DNA of 22,065 nt from Candidatus Methylomirabilota bacterium (lineage in GTDB: Bacteria > Methylomirabilota > Methylomirabilia > Methylomirabilales > Methylomirabilaceae): contig PQAQ01000007.1 of NCBI GenBank assembly GCA_003105305.1, forward strand, positions 1 to 22,065, read 5' to 3'. Made by a program: the position numbers and the translations under genes. Numbering within the stretch: position 1 is the first letter of the stretch; each line of letters starts with the position of its first letter. Under the pieces are notes generated by a model. It saw only the letters and a program-made list of their open reading frames with translations. It did not search any database and was not told where the DNA came from. This document shows positions 5,884-21,760 of this stretch, piece after piece.

Positions 5884-7041
5884 ATGGCGCTGATTACAGT
5901 CAAAAGAGAGGTTGCGCCGGGAAGCTTCAGGGTGCTGTACCTGCTGGCCGATCAGACGGGGTGCGGGTGGTATCGTTGTCTGCTGCCCGGGATCTACCTG
6001 CGCAACCTCTATGGAGTCGATTCGAGGGCTGCGACCTCCCTGACCGACGAGGTGAAGGCCTTCGCGCGGGGCGCTGATATCCTGGTGTGTCAGCGGCAGC
6101 TTTCCGATGACGTGCTGGAGTTCGGCCGTGAGCAGAAGGCGTTGGGGAAGACAATCATCTACGAACTCGACGATGACTTCTGGCACCTTCCGGTGAAGAA
6201 CCCAGCGTATCAATATTATCAGGCCGGGGGGCTGGCGAGGCTTGCCGGATTCATTCGCGCGGCTGATGTGGTGACGGTCTCGACGGAGCCGCTCAAGCGG
6301 GTGGTCGACACGATGCACGACCGTGTCGTCGTCCTGCCCAACGCGGTTGATCCCGATCTTGCCGATACCATTGCCGCATCGCGCGTGGCGCAGCCGGCCT
6401 GCCGGGATGCGAAGGTCAGAATTGGCTGGTCGGGATCGAATTTCCATGATGGCGACCTCGACTGCGCGATCGACGCCATTATCACGGTAGCTAAGCGTCC
6501 CGAAGTGCAGTTGATCTTCTTTGGCTGGGCGCCGGAGCGGGTCCGGCGGGAGATACCGGCCGGCAAGCTCGAGGTCTACCCGTTCGTACCGACCAACAAC
6601 TACTATCACGCGATGGCGAGCCTCCGTCTGGATATCGGCCTCGCGCCGCTGCGCGACAACCGGTTCAATGAGGCGAAGAGTAATCTGAAATATCTTGAGT
6701 ACAGTATGTTTAGAATTCCGACTGTGGCCTCTCCCGTCTATCCCTATACCTGCACGATCACTCATGGCGAGGACGGCATCCTGGTCAAAAAGAATCGCCA
6801 CCAGGAGTGGCTCAGGCAGTTGACCTGGCTTGTGGAGGATAAAACGGCGCGAGATCGGCTGGCGCGCAACGCCTATGCGACGGTGAGAGACAGATTTCAT
6901 CTCAAAACGAACGTCAGGCAGTGGCTGGATCTCTACAGGAGTCTTCGCGGTGGGTTCGATCGCGCGGCGGTCTCCGGGTCTCGACCCGTTGCACCGGCAG
7001 ACCGTTCGTTGAATGGCGCCGGTGCGGCGGCTGCCTGTTGA
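5884..7041 (+). CDS. Glycosyltransferase, GT4/GT-B-like, in the flagellar operon
   Basis: The protein has 385 residues. It looks like a GT-B-fold glycosyltransferase: an N-terminal Rossmann-like half with RVLYLLADQTGCGWYRCLLP and IIYELDDDFWHLP, then a C-terminal nucleotide-sugar half with RIGWSGSNFHDGD, QLIFFGWAPE, DIGLAPLRDNRFNEAKSNL and KYLEYSMFRIPTVAS. The KSNLKYLEY motif near residue 268 and the preceding acidic residue are typical of group 1 glycosyltransferases acting on sugar nucleotides. It has no signal peptide or membrane segment, so it should act in the cytoplasm. Its place between flgE and flbD suggests glycosylation of flagellin or another axial protein, but the acceptor cannot be read from sequence. 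There is no clear ribosome site before the ATG, and a repeat cluster precedes it. The C-terminal 25 residues are Ala/Gly/Arg-rich and probably disordered. Confidence 0.8.
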   Translation: MALITVKREVAPGSFRVLYLLADQTGCGWYRCLLPGIYLRNLYGVDSRAATSLTDEVKAFARGADILVCQRQLSDDVLEFGREQKALGKTIIYELDDDFWHLPVKNPAYQYYQAGGLARLAGFIRAADVVTVSTEPLKRVVDTMHDRVVVLPNAVDPDLADTIAASRVAQPACRDAKVRIGWSGSNFHDGDLDCAIDAIITVAKRPEVQLIFFGWAPERVRREIPAGKLEVYPFVPTNNYYHAMASLRLDIGLAPLRDNRFNEAKSNLKYLEYSMFRIPTVASPVYPYTCTITHGEDGILVKKNRHQEWLRQLTWLVEDKTARDRLARNAYATVRDRFHLKTNVRQWLDLYRSLRGGFDRAAVSGSRPVAPADRSLNGAGAAAAC

Positions 7042-13752: not shown

Positions 13753-15860
13753 ACACGACCTCGATGAACACGACGGTGAAGGCGACTCAGACTGCGCGCC
13801 TGATGCCGCTGCTGCAGGGCGATGTCGTGGTAGCCCTGGCCAGCATCGGCATCCTGCTGGCGATGCTGGTGCCGATCCCGCCGCTCCTGCTCGACCTGTT
13901 GCTGGCCGCCAACGTCACGCTGGCGCTTCTGATCTTCGTCATTTCGCTGTACATCCTGCGCCCCCTCGATCTGTCGGTCTTTCCGTCGCTCCTCTTGGTG
14001 CTGACGCTGTTCCGGCTGTCGCTGAACGTCGCCTCGACGCGCCTGGTGCTGTTGCACGGCAATGAGGGCGCGGCCGCCGCGGGCCGCATCATCAATGCGT
14101 TCGGAAGTTTCGTCGTAGGCGGCAGCTACATCGTGGGCGCGGTCGTCTTCGCGATCCTGGCGGTGATCCAGTTCATGGTCATCACCAAGGGCGCCGGTCG
14201 CATCGCCGAGGTCTCCGCCCGTTTCACCCTCGACGCCATGCCAGGGAAACAACTGTCGATCGATGCCGATATGAACGCGGGGCTGATCAATGAGCAGGAG
14301 GCCAGGGCTCGCCGCATGGAGATCGCACGGGAGGCGGACTTCTATGGGGCCATGGACGGCGCCAGCAAGTTCGTCCGTGGGGACGCGATTGCCGGGATGA
14401 TCATTATCGCCATCAATATCGTGGGAGGGCTCGCCATCGGCGTCCTGCAGAACGGGATGGATCTGATGGCGGCGCTGCAGACCTATACGCTGCTGACCGT
14501 CGGCGACGGGCTGGTGACGCAGATCCCGGCGCTGGCGATCTCCACTGCGGCCGGCATCGTGATGACGAGAGCCGCCTCCGAGGCCGAGCTCAGCGCAACA
14601 TTGGGTCGGCAGATACTCTTTCACCCGAAACCGCTCGGGATTACGGCGGGTGTGCTGTTGTTTGTCGGGCTGATTCCGGGCATGCCGTTTCTGCCCTTTT
14701 TCGTGGTGGCGTCCCTGATCGGAACGGTCGCCTATTCCCGGGTCAAGTCCGGATCCTCGGCAGACGGGCGAACGAGTGAGGAGGAGACCCCGGCGGCGCC
14801 CTCCGGTCCCGAAAAGGTGGAGACGCTTCTGCCGCTGGACCTCTTGACGCTGGAGGTGGGATACGGCCTGATTCCGCTGGTGGACGCGGGCCAGGGCGGA
14901 GACCTCCTCGAGCGGATCAAGCTGATCAGACGGCAATTCGCCCTCGATATGGGGTTCGTCGTCCCGCCCGTAAGGATCCGCGATAACCTCTCCCTCAGGC
15001 CCAACAGCTACAGCGTCAAGATCAAGGGCGTCGAGATCGCACAGGGAGAGGTGATGGTGGGGCATTTCCTGGCCATGGATCCCGGAACGGCTCAGGAGCC
15101 GGTGGACGGAATCGAGACGCAGGAGCCGACCTTCGGCCTGCCGGCGCGATGGATCAGCGGGGCGCTCAAGGAGCGTGCGCAGGTCCTGGGTTATACCGTT
15201 GTCGATCCCTCATCGGTCGTGGCCACCCATCTGTCGGAGGTGATCCGGCGAGAGGCGCGCGAGCTGGTGGGGAGGCAGGAGGTGCAGGCGCTCCTGGATC
15301 ACCTGAAGCAGACCCATCCGGCGCTGGTGGACGGGATCATTCCGGTTCAGCTCTCGCTGGGCATTGTACAGCGGGTCTTGCAGGGGCTGTTGATGGAGGG
15401 GGTGTCGATCCGCGACCTCCCGACGATTCTTGAAGCGCTGGCCGATTACGCCCCCTACAGTAAGGATCCGGTCCTGCTGACCGAGCACGCGCGACAGGCG
15501 CTGGCCAAGTCGATCTGCCGGTCGCTCCTGATGCCGGACGGAGGACTGGCGGTGCTCACGCTCGGTCCGTCCATGGAACAGACACTGGCCGAGGCGATCG
15601 TTCAGAATGAACAGGAGAGCTATCTGGCGCTCGAACCCAGACTCGCGCAGAAGGTGGTTGAGGCCGTCGCGAAAGGGGTGGAACAGTGCCTGCCGCTTGC
15701 GGGGCAACCGGTCTTTCTCTGCACCGCCGGGGTCCGCCCGCACCTGCGTCGCCTGATTGAGCGGTATCTGCCGCAGGTGACGGTGTTGTCATACAACGAG
15801 ATCGGACCTCGCGTCTCTGTGAAGGTCCTCAAGACGGTGGAGCTGAGCGATGCATCTTAA
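13749..15860 (+). CDS. flhA: Flagellar export gate protein FlhA
   Basis: The protein has 703 residues, the usual length, with an ATGA overlap with flhB; a second ATG eight codons in is also possible. The N-terminal half (to about residue 330) has about eight membrane helices and the signature region RLSLNVASTRLVLLHG, FVVGGSYIVGAVVFAILAVI, QFMVITKGAGRIAEVSARFT and LDAMPGKQLSIDADMNAGLI. The C-terminal cytoplasmic domain (about 360-700) docks chaperone-substrate complexes; GYTVVDPSSVVATHLSEVIR and GVSIRDLPTILEALADYA are typical of it. FlhA uses the proton gradient in type III export and forms the nonameric cytoplasmic ring. Confidence 0.97.
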   Translation: MNTTSMNTTVKATQTARLMPLLQGDVVVALASIGILLAMLVPIPPLLLDLLLAANVTLALLIFVISLYILRPLDLSVFPSLLLVLTLFRLSLNVASTRLVLLHGNEGAAAAGRIINAFGSFVVGGSYIVGAVVFAILAVIQFMVITKGAGRIAEVSARFTLDAMPGKQLSIDADMNAGLINEQEARARRMEIAREADFYGAMDGASKFVRGDAIAGMIIIAINIVGGLAIGVLQNGMDLMAALQTYTLLTVGDGLVTQIPALAISTAAGIVMTRAASEAELSATLGRQILFHPKPLGITAGVLLFVGLIPGMPFLPFFVVASLIGTVAYSRVKSGSSADGRTSEEETPAAPSGPEKVETLLPLDLLTLEVGYGLIPLVDAGQGGDLLERIKLIRRQFALDMGFVVPPVRIRDNLSLRPNSYSVKIKGVEIAQGEVMVGHFLAMDPGTAQEPVDGIETQEPTFGLPARWISGALKERAQVLGYTVVDPSSVVATHLSEVIRREARELVGRQEVQALLDHLKQTHPALVDGIIPVQLSLGIVQRVLQGLLMEGVSIRDLPTILEALADYAPYSKDPVLLTEHARQALAKSICRSLLMPDGGLAVLTLGPSMEQTLAEAIVQNEQESYLALEPRLAQKVVEAVAKGVEQCLPLAGQPVFLCTAGVRPHLRRLIERYLPQVTVLSYNEIGPRVSVKVLKTVELSDAS

Positions 15861-17010
15861 GCGATTCCGCGCCGCAACGATGGATGAGGCGTTGCGCCGG
15901 ATTGGGGAAGAGTTGGGTCCGGAGGCGGTCATTCTGCACACCAAGAGCGTCCCGCTGGCCGGCGCGGGTCCGCTTGCGAGGCGACAGGGCGTAGAGGTGA
16001 TGGCGGCGCTGGACGGCGATCCCCCTTCCAGGGTGTCGGGTGTCGGATGTCAGGTATCGAGTGCAAAGAGAGAGTCTCAACCTCCGTCCTCCACACCCTC
16101 CACCCTCGACCCTCCACCCACAACTCGTAACGATGCCGACGCGCTGTGGCGCGAGCTCGCGCAGGTCAAAGGGATGGTGTCCGGACTGTACGGCCGGGGG
16201 TACCTGCCGCCCGATTTGCCGGAGGCGCTCGGCCGGGCGTACTGGTCGCTGCTGGCCCAAGAGGTGGAGGAGGGCGTGGCCCATCGGTGGATTATCTCGA
16301 TACGGGACCGACTGCGGGAGGCGGCTTCATCCGAGCCGACGCCGGTGTCGACGCTGCTCGCCGAGGTGCTGGCGCGGGAGATCGTCGGCACGCCGCCCGC
16401 TGTCGTGCGGAACGGGCGTCGCGTGGTGGCGCTGGTCGGTCCGACCGGCGTCGGCAAGACGACGACCATCGCGAAGCTCGCGGCCGGCTGTCGGTTTCGA
16501 GAGGGGAAGCGGGTCGCGCTGATCACGACCGACACCTATCGGATCGCCGGCGCCCAACAGCTCAAGAGTTACGCCGAGCTGATCGGCCTGTCCTACTGTG
16601 TGGCGCCGCATCCGGATGACCTGAAGCGGGCGCTGGCGAACGAGCGCGACGCCGATGTGGTCTTCATCGATACGGTCGGACGAAGCGCACGGCGGCCGGA
16701 CCAGTTGGAGGAGTTGGCGAACTACGTTCGCGGCGACGACGGCTGCGAGGTGTCGCTGGTCCTGAGCGCGACGACCAAGCGGGCCGACCTGCTGCAGGCG
16801 GTCGAAGGGTACCGGCCGCTTCGTTTCACATCGATTATCGCCACCAAGCTCGATGAGACCGCCGCCGTAGGGCCGGTGTTGGAGGCCGCGCTGACGGCGG
16901 CCGCCCCGATTTCGTATCTCACGACAGGTCAAGAGGTGCCGGACGACATCGAAGAGGCGCAACCGGTCCGGCTTGCGCAACGTCTGGTCGACGGACAGGC
17001 GGGGGGGTAG
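15850..17010 (+). CDS. flhF: SRP-type GTPase FlhF (flagellar placement)
   Basis: The protein has 386 residues, with an 11-base overlap with flhA. The basic N-terminal B domain (HLKRFRAATMDEALRRIGEE, then LGPEAVILHTKSV) is followed by a linker, an N domain and the G domain. GTPase motifs: P-loop G197-PTGVGK-T204, G3 D274-TVGR-278 (the common form is DTAGR), and G4 T332-KLD-335; ITTDTYRIAGAQQLKSYAEL is the SRP-family insertion region. FlhF sets the site and number of polar flagella. The linker at about residues 58-94 encodes a repeat-derived stretch (see the repeat at 16034-16116) with SGVGCQVSS and Pro-rich sequence unlike its surroundings; the frame is kept. FlhG follows immediately. Confidence 0.95.
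   Translation: MHLKRFRAATMDEALRRIGEELGPEAVILHTKSVPLAGAGPLARRQGVEVMAALDGDPPSRVSGVGCQVSSAKRESQPPSSTPSTLDPPPTTRNDADALWRELAQVKGMVSGLYGRGYLPPDLPEALGRAYWSLLAQEVEEGVAHRWIISIRDRLREAASSEPTPVSTLLAEVLAREIVGTPPAVVRNGRRVVALVGPTGVGKTTTIAKLAAGCRFREGKRVALITTDTYRIAGAQQLKSYAELIGLSYCVAPHPDDLKRALANERDADVVFIDTVGRSARRPDQLEELANYVRGDDGCEVSLVLSATTKRADLLQAVEGYRPLRFTSIIATKLDETAAVGPVLEAALTAAAPISYLTTGQEVPDDIEEAQPVRLAQRLVDGQAGG
16034..16116 (+). repeat. Two heptameric tandem repeat arrays inside flhF
   Basis: Four 7-base units (TGTCGGG, TGTCGGA, TGTCAGG, TATCGAG) occupy 16034-16061. A pyrimidine-rich array follows, with CCCTCCA, CCCTCGA and CCCTCCA at 16096-16116 and more degenerate copies just upstream. The strand asymmetry and low complexity are unlike the surrounding coding sequence. 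The insert falls in the variable B-N linker of FlhF and preserves the frame, so it is probably a tolerated insertion of non-coding-type repeat DNA. Confidence 0.7.
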
Positions 17011-17015
17011 AGCAA

Positions 17016-17867
17016 ATGCAGGATCAGGCATCAAAGCTTCGCGACAGCGCAACCGCCACCGACTGCAGGCTTCGGACGATTGCGATCACCAGCGGCAAGG
17101 GGGGCGTCGGGAAGACCTCCCTGGCGGTGAATCTCGGCCTGATGTTGGCGGGGGAAGGCCGTCGCGTCGCCCTCCTTGACGGCGATATGGGTCTGGCAAA
17201 CGTTGATGTGATGTTGGGGTTGACGCCGGAATTCACGCTTCGCCATGTCGTCGAGGGACAAAAGGAGCTTCACGAGATCATGCTTCCGGGGCCGAACGGC
17301 CTGTACGTGATTCCGGCCAGCCGTGGGATCGAGGAGATGGCCCATCTCGCCCCAGCGGACCAGGCCGCGCTGCTGGAGCGGCTGGGACAACTGGAGGGGA
17401 TGGTTGACATCCTGCTGCTGGATACCGCGGCAGGGATCTCGCCCAACGTACTCAGTCTGATCCTGGCGGCCGATGAGGCGATCGTCGTCACGAGTCCGGA
17501 GCCCACCGCCATCACCGACGCGTACGCGGTGATCAAGGTCCTGTCCCGCCATCGCGCCGATCCGCGCGCGGGCATCCTGGTGAATATGGCGGACGGATCG
17601 GCTCAGGCAGAGGAGCTGTTCGAAGAGTTGCGGCGGGTGATCCGCCATTTTCTCAAGGTGGACGTTCGGTTTGTGGGTCATGTGCTCCGGGACGAGTGCG
17701 TCGGACGGGCGGTCTGCGAGCAGAAGCCGTTTTCGATCTGCTTCCCGTATGCCAGAGCATCGCGGTCGCTGGCCGATCTGGCGAGAACGCTCGTCGTTCC
17801 AGGTCCGCGCGAGCCGCAACCGGAGCCGTTCTGGGATCGGATGGCGCACTGGGCGGCGCAATTATGA
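17016..17867 (+). CDS. flhG: MinD-like ATPase FlhG (flagellar number control)
   Basis: The protein has 283 residues. A deviant Walker A motif S26-GKGGVGKT-34 (signature Lys28 and Lys33) defines the MinD/ParA group, followed by LLDGDMGLANVDVMLGL and the Walker B-like region VDILLLDTAAGISPNVLSL. The N-terminal DQASKLR (residues 3-9) matches the DQAxxLR helix by which FlhG stimulates the FlhF GTPase. FlhG limits flagellar number and helps assemble the C-ring. The start lies 6 bases after the flhF stop. The C-terminus is slightly extended (WDRMAHWAAQL) and amphipathic, possibly a membrane-targeting helix. Confidence 0.94.
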   Translation: MQDQASKLRDSATATDCRLRTIAITSGKGGVGKTSLAVNLGLMLAGEGRRVALLDGDMGLANVDVMLGLTPEFTLRHVVEGQKELHEIMLPGPNGLYVIPASRGIEEMAHLAPADQAALLERLGQLEGMVDILLLDTAAGISPNVLSLILAADEAIVVTSPEPTAITDAYAVIKVLSRHRADPRAGILVNMADGSAQAEELFEELRRVIRHFLKVDVRFVGHVLRDECVGRAVCEQKPFSICFPYARASRSLADLARTLVVPGPREPQPEPFWDRMAHWAAQL

Positions 17868-17878
17868 GCGGCAGGTGG

Positions 17879-17949
17879 ATAGGCTGAAGGGGCGCAGAGT
17901 GAAGGCTTGAAGGAGGAATTCTCTAAGACCCTTCAGCCTCATAGCCTAT
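17879..17949. repeat. Inverted repeat with a Shine-Dalgarno-like site in the loop, upstream of fliA
   Basis: AGGCTGAAGGG (17881-17891) pairs perfectly over 11 bases with CCCTTCAGCCT (17929-17939). A second arm, AGCCTAT (17943-17949), can also pair with ATAGGCT (17879-17885). The loop contains AAGGAGG (17910-17916), about 31 bases before the first fliA ATG and so too far for direct use. The AGGCT/AGCCT units recall the repeat after flgE. It may be an inserted small repeat that separated fliA from its original ribosome site, or a regulatory structure. Confidence 0.65.
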
Positions 17950-19342
17950 GAGTGAGGAACAAATGGAGATTACGCGAGACGAATGGCGGGCTTACCGCCG
18001 TACGAAGGATCCCGGGCTGAGGGATCGGCTGATCACGGCGAACATCCGCCTTGTGCGCCAGGTCGCCGGTCGCCTCTCGCTGCAACTGCCGTCATGTGTG
18101 GAGTTGGACGATCTGGAGAGCGCCGGCGCGGTGGGCCTCGTGAGCGCCGTCGAGCACTACGATCCGGAGCAGCCGTCGGAGTTCGCCACCTACGCTCAAC
18201 ATCGGATTCGCGGCGCGATTCTCGACGATCTCAGGGCACAGGATTTCGCGCCGCGCTCGCTTCGGGCCAGGGCGCGGGAGATTCAGCAGACGCTGTTTCG
18301 GTTGGAGGGCAGCCTGGGACGGGAACCCGACGACGACGAGGTCGCGGCGGCGCTCGGCATAGACCGGGACAGCTACTGGCGCGTGCTGGGCGAGATCCGG
18401 GGGATGGTGCTGATGTCGCTCGACGAGCCCGGCGTCGAGGCCGACGGCGCGGAAAGCGATCGGCTCGTGTGGGAGCTCCCCGACTCGACGTCCGGCGATC
18501 CGTCTACCATTGTCGCGTCAAAGGAACGGGTGCGGCTCCTGGGCAAGATCATCGAGGCGCTGCCGAAGCAGGAGCGGCTCGTGCTGACCTTGTACTATGT
18601 TGAGGAGCTGACTATGAAGGAGATCGGCCGGGTGCTCGAGGTCTCGGAATCGCGCGTCTCGCAGATCCACACCGCCGCCGTCCTCCGGATGCGGGCCAGA
18701 CTCTCGCAGGTCAAGCTCCGACGGGACGACCTGATCCACGAGGAGAGCGCGAGTTTCACCCTTCGCGAACTGGTGCTGGCCCTCTTCGTGAGCATGAGCC
18801 TGCTGGTCGGGGGGTGCGCGTCGTTGTCGGGGCCGCCCCCGCCGCGGACGGTCGTAATCCCCAGAGAGGGCCGGACCGTCGTCCTGCCGGCGCCGGAGAC
18901 GGTCGAGGATCGTCCGCTGGTCGAGGAGGTGGCGCGACTCTTCGTGCTCGAGATGTCGCATGCCGGGATCGACGTTCGGGGGCCGGACTGGGTGCGGGAC
19001 GAGGCCAGATCACACGGCTGGGATTGGCACGCGGATCAGTGGCCGCGCCTGAATGACCCCGCCCTCCACGCGCAGACCCCCGGATCCGAATCCGGCGGGA
19101 TCGATTGGGCGGCGCTGGGGGTCAGACGTGTCCTCGTCGTTGCATTGCAGGGTGTCGACCAGCATTGGGACGGAACGGTCCGAGTGACGAGGGTCGGGTT
19201 GGAGGCAAGGCTCGTCGCCGTGCCGTCCGGGACGGTGCTGTGGGCCGGAAAGGTCGCGCCGGGGAGCGCCGGGACGGCCGGGTGGTCGTTTGAGCGGGCG
19301 ACACGCATCGCGGTGCGACAGTTGGCGGACACTTTTCGGTAA
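17948..19342 (+). CDS. fliA: FliA (sigma-28) in one frame with a C-terminal lipoprotein-like region
   Basis: The protein has 464 residues, whereas FliA is normally about 230-260. Residues 1-256 are a full sigma-28 factor: region 2 with LITANIRLVRQVAGRLS and EFATYAQHRIRGAILDDLRA, region 3, and region 4 with LPKQERLVLTLYYVEELTMK and VLEVSESRVSQIHTAA. With no stop codon the frame continues into a hydrophobic helix (about 271-290, LVLALFVSMSLLVGGC) ending in a lipobox-like cysteine (C290). A periplasmic-type domain follows to residue 464, with VLVVALQGVDQHWDGTVRV and EARLVAVPSGTVLWAGKVAP, loosely like CsgG/TolB-N-type lipoproteins. Internal starts (GTG 18773, GTG 18788, ATG 18794) lack a well-placed ribosome site. 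An alternative fliA start is ATG 17963, which has GTGAGG 5 bases upstream. It may be a real fusion, or two genes whose separating stop was lost. Confidence 0.85.
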   Translation: MSEEQMEITRDEWRAYRRTKDPGLRDRLITANIRLVRQVAGRLSLQLPSCVELDDLESAGAVGLVSAVEHYDPEQPSEFATYAQHRIRGAILDDLRAQDFAPRSLRARAREIQQTLFRLEGSLGREPDDDEVAAALGIDRDSYWRVLGEIRGMVLMSLDEPGVEADGAESDRLVWELPDSTSGDPSTIVASKERVRLLGKIIEALPKQERLVLTLYYVEELTMKEIGRVLEVSESRVSQIHTAAVLRMRARLSQVKLRRDDLIHEESASFTLRELVLALFVSMSLLVGGCASLSGPPPPRTVVIPREGRTVVLPAPETVEDRPLVEEVARLFVLEMSHAGIDVRGPDWVRDEARSHGWDWHADQWPRLNDPALHAQTPGSESGGIDWAALGVRRVLVVALQGVDQHWDGTVRVTRVGLEARLVAVPSGTVLWAGKVAPGSAGTAGWSFERATRIAVRQLADTFR

Positions 19343-19357
19343 CGCGTCGCGGACGAG

Positions 19358-19669
19358 ATGGACAGCCTTTCGAGAATCAACGAGTCGATACCGGACGTCG
19401 GGGCGGCGGAGCGGGTGAGCGAGGCGCGCCGGCAGGCCGGAGAGCGACAGAAGGGGGCCGCGCGGCGGCGGGCCAAGCGGACACCATCGGCGGCGGCGTC
19501 CGGCGATGGAGGCGGGTCGCGCGCGGGGCAGGAGGGCGACCGTCCCGTTCAGGCGGACTCCGGCGAGATGCGGCCGACCGATCAGGAGCGTTCGGAAGCG
19601 TGTTATGGCCGAAACAGGACCGTCGCGCCGATCCTGCCGAAGGGTCGGGTCATCGATATCGCGATCTGA
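19358..19669 (+). CDS. Small hydrophilic protein of unknown function
   Basis: The protein has 103 residues and is not recognised. It is highly charged and low in hydrophobic residues, with an Arg/Lys/Ala-rich middle (EARRQAGERQKGAARRRAKR) and no membrane segment or signal peptide. The C-terminus ends RVIDIAI, similar to the short V-D-I endings of small proteins found beside fliA in other flagellar clusters. Its place between fliA and the DUF2802-like gene, on the same strand with short gaps, supports a real gene; the ribosome site is weak. It may be a DNA/RNA-binding or disordered accessory protein, but no function can be assigned. Confidence 0.5.
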   Translation: MDSLSRINESIPDVGAAERVSEARRQAGERQKGAARRRAKRTPSAAASGDGGGSRAGQEGDRPVQADSGEMRPTDQERSEACYGRNRTVAPILPKGRVIDIAI

Positions 19670-20267: not shown

Positions 20268-21129
20268 GCGCCACGCGGGGGCGACGAGCGCGACCGATCA
20301 TCGGGGCAGATCGGGTTGGCCTGAAGAGGGATCTGGCGGACCCGACTTTCCCCGTCTGCTGACGGAGGCCGGCCTGCGTCACACGATCGCGGCCGCGTCC
20401 GAAGGCCTGCCGGAGACGGCGGCGCGGGCCGTGCGCACCGTTCGCCATGGCGACACGCTGTCGGGTCTGGTCCAGGCGGCGTTGCGCGAGGCCGGGATAC
20501 CGGCGAACGCGAGCGCGCTGTACCGCGCGGTCGGCGTCGTCGCCGACGCCAATCGTCTAGCGGACCCCGACCGCATCCGTCCCGGCCAGGCCATTGACCT
20601 GTCCGCCGTCATCCCCAACGCGGTACCGAACGAGCGGGCCGGCGACATCCGTCTCGACGACGAAGGCGTCCATGGGATCCGCGATGCGGCCCTCGGCATC
20701 CTGCGCGGCCTGAAGACATTTATGCAATCGTTTGCTGGTCGATTCAGCTCGTCATTCGGCGCCCGGATCGATCCGGTGACCGGATTGAGGGCGTTTCATG
20801 CCGGCGTGGACATCAGGATGCCGGCCGGATCGCTCGTGTATCCTGCGGCGCCTGGACGGGTCATCTTCAGCGGCCGGACGGCCGGATACGGCAATCTGGT
20901 GATCCTGGCGCATGCGGGGGGATTTACGACCTCCTACGGCCACAACGCGTCCAATCTGATCCCCGCCGGAACGGTCGTGGATCGGGGAATGCCGATCGCC
21001 GTTGTCGGCGCGACGGGCAGGGCCACCGGACCGCATCTGCACTTCGAACTTCGCAAGGACGGCCACCCCATCAATCCGGATGTCACAGCTCGGGCATTGG
21101 AGGATCACGGTGGAGCGCAAGATCTGTAA
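20191..21129 (+). CDS. LysM-containing M23 peptidase in the flagellar operon
   Basis: The protein has 312 residues. A LysM peptidoglycan-binding domain lies at about 79-150 (VRTVRHGDTLSGLVQAALRE, later NRLADPDRIRPGQAIDLSAV). The M23 (LytM-type) peptidase domain covers about 190-300. Its zinc ligands are intact: H203 and D207 in FHAGVDI, and H282/H284 in PHLHFEL, with YGHN between them. It should cleave peptidoglycan peptide bridges. No signal peptide or membrane helix is visible in the first 60 residues, so its export route is unclear. It starts at ATG 20191 (GGAGGAGAGG 9-10 bases upstream), overlapping the previous gene by 77 bases; ATG 20248 is an alternative. It is likely involved in rod penetration of the cell wall, as FlgJ is elsewhere. 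Confidence 0.85.
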   Translation: MSRSAATAPEPAGRSGGTRMDVRWAERHAGATSATDHRGRSGWPEEGSGGPDFPRLLTEAGLRHTIAAASEGLPETAARAVRTVRHGDTLSGLVQAALREAGIPANASALYRAVGVVADANRLADPDRIRPGQAIDLSAVIPNAVPNERAGDIRLDDEGVHGIRDAALGILRGLKTFMQSFAGRFSSSFGARIDPVTGLRAFHAGVDIRMPAGSLVYPAAPGRVIFSGRTAGYGNLVILAHAGGFTTSYGHNASNLIPAGTVVDRGMPIAVVGATGRATGPHLHFELRKDGHPINPDVTARALEDHGGAQDL

Positions 21130-21760
21130 GGGAGTGAAGGCGGAAATCGGATTTGCCGATTCCCCTGTCTCAATGGTTGGGACGATTGTCGATGTCAATT
21201 CGCAGAGGCTTGTAGTCTCGCTGACGCAGGATCAGGGCGCGGGTCGGTCGGCGGCGACGCCCAAAACGAATCGCCTCGGCGGAGTGCGGGTAGTCGCAAC
21301 CGCCAACGACGCCCTGTATCGTTTTACCTCGACCCTGCTTCAATCGTCGGATTCCCTGCTGTATCTGTCGTTTCCCGGAGAGGTGCAACGGGTTCAGCGG
21401 AGGGAAGACGTCAGACAACCCTGCCTGATCGACGTAGAAGTCAAAATACCGAGGGGCGAGCGGGTTCCTTCAAGGCGTGCGCGGGCCACAGCGGTGAATA
21501 TCAGTTGCGGCGGACTGCTCATCATCTTCGACGGACGCCTTGAGGTTGGGGATGCCGTCGCGCTGTCGATGGAGCTTCCGGACGGCGGGCCGCTTGCCGA
21601 GGTGGCCGCGCGCGTCGTCCGGACTGAGCCGTATTCGCATCGCGGACAGGAGCTGATGAGGGTTGCGCTCCGTCTCGAGCGGCTGCAGCCCGCGGACCGG
21701 AAGCGACTGACGCAGTTCATCACGAAATGCCAGGTGAAAGCGCGAGCGACGTCGTTGTAG
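21110..21760 (+). CDS. YcgR-like PilZ c-di-GMP-binding flagellar protein
   Basis: The protein has 216 residues from the GTG at 21110, which has GGAGG 6 bases upstream; a longer open frame to 21002 lies inside the peptidase gene. The N-terminal half is YcgR-N-like beta-structure (MVGTIVDVNSQRLVVSLTQD, then FTSTLLQSSDSLLYLSF). The PilZ domain starts near residue 90 and has both c-di-GMP motifs: R98-xxx-R102 (RREDVR) and N130-x-S132-xx-G135 (NISCGG). It probably links c-di-GMP to motor function, as the YcgR brake does. It overlaps the peptidase stop by 20 bases and is the last gene of the operon, before a strong hairpin. Confidence 0.88.
   Translation: MERKICKGVKAEIGFADSPVSMVGTIVDVNSQRLVVSLTQDQGAGRSAATPKTNRLGGVRVVATANDALYRFTSTLLQSSDSLLYLSFPGEVQRVQRREDVRQPCLIDVEVKIPRGERVPSRRARATAVNISCGGLLIIFDGRLEVGDAVALSMELPDGGPLAEVAARVVRTEPYSHRGQELMRVALRLERLQPADRKRLTQFITKCQVKARATSL

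Follow-up and report, generated by a model that had tools for sequence, protein, structure and literature searches.

In a flagellar gene cluster of a Candidatus Methylomirabilota bacterium, the gene for the sigma-28 factor FliA runs on without a stop codon into a second part with a lipobox and an exported-type domain, and this single open frame is kept across a clade, together with the conserved lipobox and a junction that is coding. FliA is the textbook example of a soluble flagellar sigma factor, released upon secretion of FlgM. The fused gene lies in what we call the window, i.e., the whole 22,065-nucleotide stretch of DNA that was analysed (contig PQAQ01000007.1). Judging from the sequence, its product is probably one preprotein made of FliA, a linker and a lipoprotein with its own signal, which would be inserted in the membrane and cleaved at C290 to leave a tail-anchored FliA. 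If this is true, late flagellar transcription is placed at the membrane, the only recognised FliA of the lineage is the cytoplasmic half of a lipoprotein precursor, and the sigma factor becomes a by-product of lipoprotein processing. The arrangement raises the question of whether a sigma factor that shares its chain with a lipoprotein signal sequence can function in place or be set free.

The plus-strand frame from 17948 to 19342 is an uninterrupted open reading frame of 464 amino acids with no internal stop (Table 1; residues are counted from the beginning of this frame). The initial annotation, made from the sequence alone, had described a complete sigma-28 factor that continues into a hydrophobic helix, the motif LLVGGC and a lipoprotein-like domain, and each of these elements was recovered: residues 29–253 score 237.4 bits against the FliA_WhiG model TIGR02479 (cut-off 189.6), sigma-70 regions 2, 3 and 4 are all matched in Pfam, and hydrophobicity peaks at residues 275–293 (Kyte-Doolittle mean 2.26, as against 1.29 for the best stretch elsewhere in the protein), within which LLVGGC290 sits. 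The lipoprotein signal sequence begins about 265 residues into the chain and not at the N-terminus as in ordinary lipoprotein precursors, and the layout reads as that of such a precursor whose n-region became a whole sigma factor. The frame is indeed open from 17948, where the gene had been taken to start, but the true start is likely the ATG at 17963 (residue 6), giving a product of 459 amino acids, because GAGGA lies just 5' of this codon and, in two related genomes (G006 and G009), the corresponding ATG lies three codons downstream of an in-frame TGA. Since the genes upstream are flhF- and flhG-like, the fused gene occupies the usual position of fliA.

Table 1 Positions of the parts of the fused gene and of its upstream neighbours in the window
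Feature	Position	Strand	Basis
flhF-like gene (SRP54-type GTPase), upstream context	15850..17010	+	Domain and position
flhG/fleN-like gene (ParA-type ATPase), immediately upstream	17016..17867	+	Domain and position
Putative ribosome-binding site GAGGA ahead of ATG 17963	17954..17958	+	TGA in G006/G009 three codons 5' of the same ATG
FliA (sigma-28) part, residues 6-262	17963..18733	+	TIGR02479 above cut-off and Pfam regions
Sigma-70 region 2	18029-18244	+	Pfam
Sigma-70 region 3	18278-18439	+	Pfam
Sigma-70 region 4	18551-18694	+	Pfam
Junction, residues 263-274 (IHEESASFTLRE)	18734..18769	+	R273 invariant in 24/24; low dN/dS
GAGGAG spanning codons 265-266, Shine-Dalgarno-like	18740..18745	+	No in-frame start within 20 nt downstream in the window genome
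Predicted h-region of lipoprotein signal sequence, residues 275-289	18770..18814	+	Hydropathy
Lipobox LVGG-C, residues 286-290, predicted signal peptidase II site before C290	18803..18817	+	C290 invariant in 24/24
Exported-type domain, residues 291-464 (174 residues)	18818..19339	+	Distant GNA1162 likeness, below cut-off
TAA stop of the fused gene	19340..19342	+	ORF end

The surrounding flagellar cluster holds a glycosyltransferase group 1 gene (PF13692, PF00534; window 5884-7041) and, downstream of an M23 peptidase gene, a PilZ-domain gene (PF07238; window 21002-21760). A small open reading frame after the fused gene (19358-19669) terminates in GRVIDIAI, and the frame at 723-2906, FliK-like by eye, terminates in RLIDIRV. 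Small frames with the endings GRLIDIAI and GRLIDIAV are found in the related genomes G009 and G004, respectively, and only a short frame with GGRLIDIAI remains in G006.

A search of 60 genomes returned the full-length fused protein from the window genome and from three others of the same genus (G004, G006 and G009), at 75–79% identity and with no stops in the three congeners; the G006 assembly is one contig of 2.75 Mb. The remaining 11 genomes of the genus gave weak matches only (25–35% identity), and flagellin genes are borne by the same four that have the fusion. Each of these four contains a single FliA_WhiG match above the cut-off, which is the fused gene. There is therefore no spare copy, and the presence of a second, normal FliA in the genome is ruled out.

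The fusion extends to metagenomic relatives. When the lipoprotein part was searched against a large protein collection, 16 proteins of 429–466 residues were retrieved, all with sigma domains (one of them, P0002, is the window's own protein and was left out of alignments A4 and A7), and a search with the FliA part restricted to longer proteins yielded at least five further fused relatives (P0045-P0049) among the best 120 of 178 matches. We aligned 24 distinct fused proteins, namely the window protein, the three congeners, 15 from the first search and five from the second; P0018, P0020 and P0022, discussed below, were excluded from this count. Although pairwise identity falls as low as 62% in FliA and 51% in the lipoprotein part, C290 and R273 are both invariant in all 24. 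The lipobox itself reads LVGGC in 15 proteins, LIGGC in three, LLAGC in three, VLAGC in two and ALAGC in one. Sigma regions 2, 3 and 4 were matched in each of the 19 fused proteins of alignment A4 (Pfam, E ≤ 1), and the cysteine is present in all 20 rows of alignment A8, which combines four fused proteins, P0018 and 15 separate relatives. A search for homologues sharing the fusion, suggested in the initial annotation, has thus been answered by three congeners and by metagenomic relatives; because the frame is open over its full length in them, its openness is not due to chance.

The junction itself evolves, as far as substitution patterns indicate, as translated coding sequence. Across the four genomes, codons 264-276 have a pS of 0.62 and a pN of 0.10, corresponding to a dN/dS of 0.083; the three sigma regions range from 0.06 to 0.17, and residues 318–358 give 0.09. 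The end of FliA (codons 253-263) is looser, with a dN/dS of 0.97 computed over 11 codons only. Within the linker, a near-invariant FTxREL core is found among the 24 fused proteins. The proposal that the two parts form a single polypeptide is thereby strengthened: the frame is uninterrupted in every one of the four genomes of the genus that have a recognised FliA, 24 fused proteins exist, and amino-acid selection acts on the junction.

Control by FlgM appears to be in place. FlgM was found above its cut-off in all four fusion genomes, which are the only ones of the 15 genomes of the genus to have it, and in nine of the 60 genomes overall. With FlgM still encoded, a tether would therefore add to normal anti-sigma control and not replace it, and the idea of the tether as a FlgM substitute is ruled out. 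In all five genomes examined, flgM is preceded by a sigma-28-like motif, TYAAG-N15-RCCGAT (the motif was read off these upstream regions after looking, and was not predicted); a relaxed form of it has nine matches in 558,522 strand-bases of the examined loci, the five flgM ones included. The presence of FlgM, together with the motif ahead of its gene, points to an ordinary circuit that is still in operation. The 400 nt preceding each of the four main flagellin genes contain no RCCGAT, an alignment of the flagellin upstream regions gave no clear sigma-28 site, and the strict enterobacterial (E. coli-type) sigma-28 pattern had zero matches in 10 genomes, the four fusion genomes among them. The portion of PMC11264602 consulted contains nothing on the flagella of Methylomirabilis.

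These observations are compatible with the following course of events. As the signal sequence leaves the ribosome, the chain would enter the inner membrane such that FliA stays on the cytoplasmic side and the lipoprotein domain ends up on the outer side, an orientation suggested by the positive residues and FliA before the h-region and by the C-terminal part after it. Lgt would then lipidate the cysteine, signal peptidase II would cut at C290, and the lipoprotein would move on to the envelope, whereas FliA would retain the former signal sequence as a C-terminal membrane tail; counted from residue 6, the cut would produce a FliA of 284 residues with a 15-residue hydrophobic tail. This tailed FliA might act from the membrane, or a site-2 protease of the RseP type might free it, and FlgM would inhibit it as usual. 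Membrane tethering and signal peptidase II cleavage are, in our view, likely, and gating of late flagellar genes by the fusion is put forward as a hypothesis. With respect to the machinery, LspA is encoded in three of the four fusion genomes (it was not found in the window's own, an assembly that is ~80% complete) and M50 peptidases, the site-2 class to which RseP belongs, in all four. To our knowledge, no signal peptidase II substrate tested so far carries ~265 residues of folded cytoplasmic domain ahead of its signal sequence, and none with such a long cytoplasmic domain occurred among the literature matches listed.

A more far-reaching version, which we regard as unlikely but worth formulating, is that lipoprotein maturation serves as a checkpoint for late flagellar genes, with export and signal peptidase II cleavage of the outer half acting as a site-1 cut that is followed by RseP-type release, or with anchored FliA handing FlgM to the export gate. 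Were this the case, the assembly of an envelope or basal-body lipoprotein would be wired directly to a sigma factor, on top of FlgM secretion. The FliA–FlgM complex meets the flagellar export apparatus during FlgM secretion, according to the relevant part of PMC5809477, and by way of speculation a membrane-held FliA might therefore serve this hand-over step.

The fusion could also be neutral, i.e., a polyprotein whose parts are promptly separated by signal peptidase II and other proteases, leaving an ordinary soluble FliA and no new regulation. The retention of FlgM and of its sigma-28-like promoter would fit this account, as would the distribution of LspA and of the M50 peptidases; against it, the linker is under selection and has a nearly invariant FTxREL core, which hints at a role beyond that of a passive joint, although the n-region of a signal peptide could by itself account for part of that conservation. 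We judge a neutral outcome to be unlikely, and note that it overlaps with the preferred preprotein reading, in which regulation is left open, and that the probabilities we attach to the several readings do not sum to one.

Another alternative is an uncleaved signal anchor, whereby the fusion would stay whole, with FliA inside and the outer lipoprotein domain sensing envelope or basal-body assembly. The conservation of the junction and helix is what a sensor-transducer would demand, and ECF sigma factors that carry both a membrane segment and an outer domain on the same chain do exist, as sections of PMC8999054 and PMC5826349 describe. Yet C290 and the lipobox are kept in every fused protein, the cysteine persists in all rows of alignment A8, and the h-region is short, as it would be expected to be in cleaved lipoprotein signals, all of which makes a permanent anchor quite improbable.

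Alternatively, internal initiation may yield a functional lipoprotein separately, with the fused chain as a minor or discarded by-product. G009 offers the best candidate, an ATG at codon 263 with GGAGG 5 nt upstream that could plausibly start a free lipoprotein in addition to the fused product, and methionine occurs at residue 262, 263 or 264 in three of the 24 fused proteins (P0013, G009 and P0008, in that order); in the other three genomes, however, codon 263 is ATC. In three genomes GAGGAG spans codons 265-266 (GAAGAG in G006), a stretch that is possibly a relic of the former ribosome site of the lipoprotein gene, but no in-frame ATG, GTG or TTG follows within 20 nt in any of the three genomes other than G009, and P0017 and P0045-P0049 have other residues at these positions. 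Past residue 240, the sole in-frame ATG, GTG or TTG that the four genomes have in common is ATG248, inside region 4 of FliA; it is preceded by no ribosome site in any of the four, and residue 248 is valine in five of the 24 fused proteins. A codon-by-codon comparison of the four genomes revealed no common internal start with a ribosome site, G009 alone having one. Methionine is absent between residues 253 and 289 in 17 of the 24 (GTG and TTG starts can be checked at the DNA level in four of the 24 only). The initial annotation had seen no ribosome site for a separate start of the second part, and in the window none precedes an in-frame start near it. Synonymous change among the four genomes is low over codons 253-263 (window 18704-18736), which rank 5 of 344; this could be chance or an overlapping signal, and counts in favour of an internal start. 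We consider separate initiation as the main source of the lipoprotein to be improbable.

That we are dealing with an assembly or sequencing error, or with a decaying gene, is virtually inconceivable, for although the window belongs to a draft assembly (80% complete, 274 contigs), the identical open frame is found in three other genomes and in metagenomic contigs, which rules out a stop lost in one assembly, and the low dN/dS of the sigma regions and of residues 318–358 speaks against decay.

As evolutionary history, by contrast, a lost stop between two genes, which had been offered as the simpler explanation, is right. Two relatives outside the clade encode the lipoprotein separately, in a different frame, by a gene that directly follows fliA and overlaps it: in G034, of the same order, fliA ends in TGA and the lipoprotein frame starts 11 nt before this stop, and in G050 the two genes overlap as TGATG. 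Their lipoproteins match profile A5 with E values of 4.9e-73 and 1.0e-64 (both sequences were included when the profile was built) and the window protein alone with 1.1e-9 and 1.4e-6, respectively. Stops between the two parts in related genomes had been named as evidence against a single polypeptide; they are seen in these two genomes, outside the clade, and are absent from all four within it. The fusion is therefore derived from overlapping neighbour genes, presumably joined when the stop codon of fliA and the start codon of the adjacent lipoprotein gene disappeared, and it probably arose once. In a tree of the FliA domain (19 fused and six separate sequences), the fused form occupies one side of a branch with 99/99 support, in an analysis for which the program warned of long branches. 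The lipoprotein profile matched eight of 95 genomes of the phylum, the four fused ones, G034 and G050 with separate genes, G059 partially and G042 weakly, and two further genomes (G020 and G029) have a fliA with a stop and no lipoprotein match anywhere. With its relatives, the clade allows the states before and after the fusion of overlapping neighbour genes to be compared cleanly.

The partial match in G059 has a peculiar layout. Past the TAA stop of fliA (locus L012, ~2275-2420), reading on in the same register gives a stretch with a lipobox (TRGAGGHALTVVLAGC) that is not preceded by any canonical start codon; the cause would be either an indel in the assembly or an unconventional start.

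The lipoprotein also has many standalone relatives, with 27 matches, 22 of them 203–212 residues long. Three of the 27 lie near the fused clade (63–66% identity). P0022 is a fragment that lacks the start, and P0020, listed at NCBI under Candidatus Methylomirabilis sp., is a frame-shifted fragment of a gene like that of G009. The third, P0018, is a fragment of 209 residues whose first residues belong to the tail of FliA, and it may represent an exception to the fusion rule. Neither Pfam nor profile searches assigned the second part to a family with confidence. It bears a distant likeness to GNA1162 (PF05643), ~60 residues of which align with the second half of the exported-type domain, but the domain fails the PF05643 gathering cut-off of 25.9: weak matches occur in six of 19 fused proteins (best E 0.11), and P0019 and P0021 score 15.3 and 12.8 bits. 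The GNA1162 structure (PDB 4hrv) was the only profile match, with an E value of 0.023 for profile A8 and 0.037 for profile A5. P0019 also faintly resembles the MXAN_6521 lipoproteins (E 0.03, below cut-off).

Compared with known FliA proteins, the window protein is conventional in its first half, with regions 2, 3 and 4, a TIGR02479 score above the cut-off, flhF- and flhG-like neighbours and FlgM in the genome, and differs in running on in frame into a lipoprotein, whereas all 20 FliA-like genes checked in other phyla stop 3–15 codons past the end of the match (these came from 32 fetched loci, the 12 with partial or weak matches being left out). A screen of 104 proteins uncovered seven FliA/WhiG-family sigma factors with a C-terminal membrane segment (P0051-P0055, P0117 and P0129, the last labelled Chloroflexi), none of which has a lipobox by the pattern used. 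By eye, P0117 and P0129 have a further outer domain of ~200 residues, a second hydrophobic stretch and an LPVTG motif. Membrane tethering of the family may thus have arisen more than once. Other fusions also came to light: P0096, P0098 and P0102 are frames of 604–624 residues that combine flagellin domains (PF00669, PF00700) and a C-terminal FliA domain in one chain, P0079 joins the FliA domain to a response-regulator receiver (PF00072), and P0097, P0099-P0101, P0103 and P0106 join it to an integrase-type N-terminal domain (PF02899).

Among ECF-type sigma factors, fusions to membrane regulators are already known. In the sections of the literature that deal with them, IutY is a sigma factor fused to a regulatory extension and released by Prc and RseP (PMC8999054), and the ECF52 and ECF53 groups (e.g., SCO4117) carry a C-terminal extension with membrane helices and an outer domain, with proteolytic release proposed for ECF52 (PMC8999054, PMC5826349). 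The window protein resembles them in having a sigma domain with a C-terminal extension and a membrane segment (residues 275–293), but those proteins are ECF-type, a class whose sigma domain consists of regions 2 and 4 only, and have anti-sigma-like or zinc-finger parts, whereas this one is flagellar, with region 3 matched, and no anti-sigma family occurs in its extension among the Pfam matches at E ≤ 1 of the window protein and 19 fused proteins. The same sections mention no lipobox; the membrane segment of the window protein is a predicted lipoprotein signal sequence. Cleavage by signal peptidase II and then by RseP or a site-2 protease is described, in part of PMC10202637, for the signal peptides that give rise to Enterococcus pheromones, where a short peptide is released, and not a sigma factor as would be the case here. 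No natural FliA–lipoprotein fusion or membrane-anchored FliA appeared among the matches listed in a search of titles and abstract openings in the open-licence literature. There is also an engineered parallel: in the relevant portion of PMC3866087, a sigma-32 tethered to the E. coli inner membrane (3L-Pf3-sigma-32) works and supports growth, and an artificial 3L-Pf3-FliA is more membrane-associated and stable. As proposed for the window protein, these constructs hold a sigma factor at the inner membrane, but their tether is engineered and N-terminal, whereas that of the clade described here would be natural and C-terminal.
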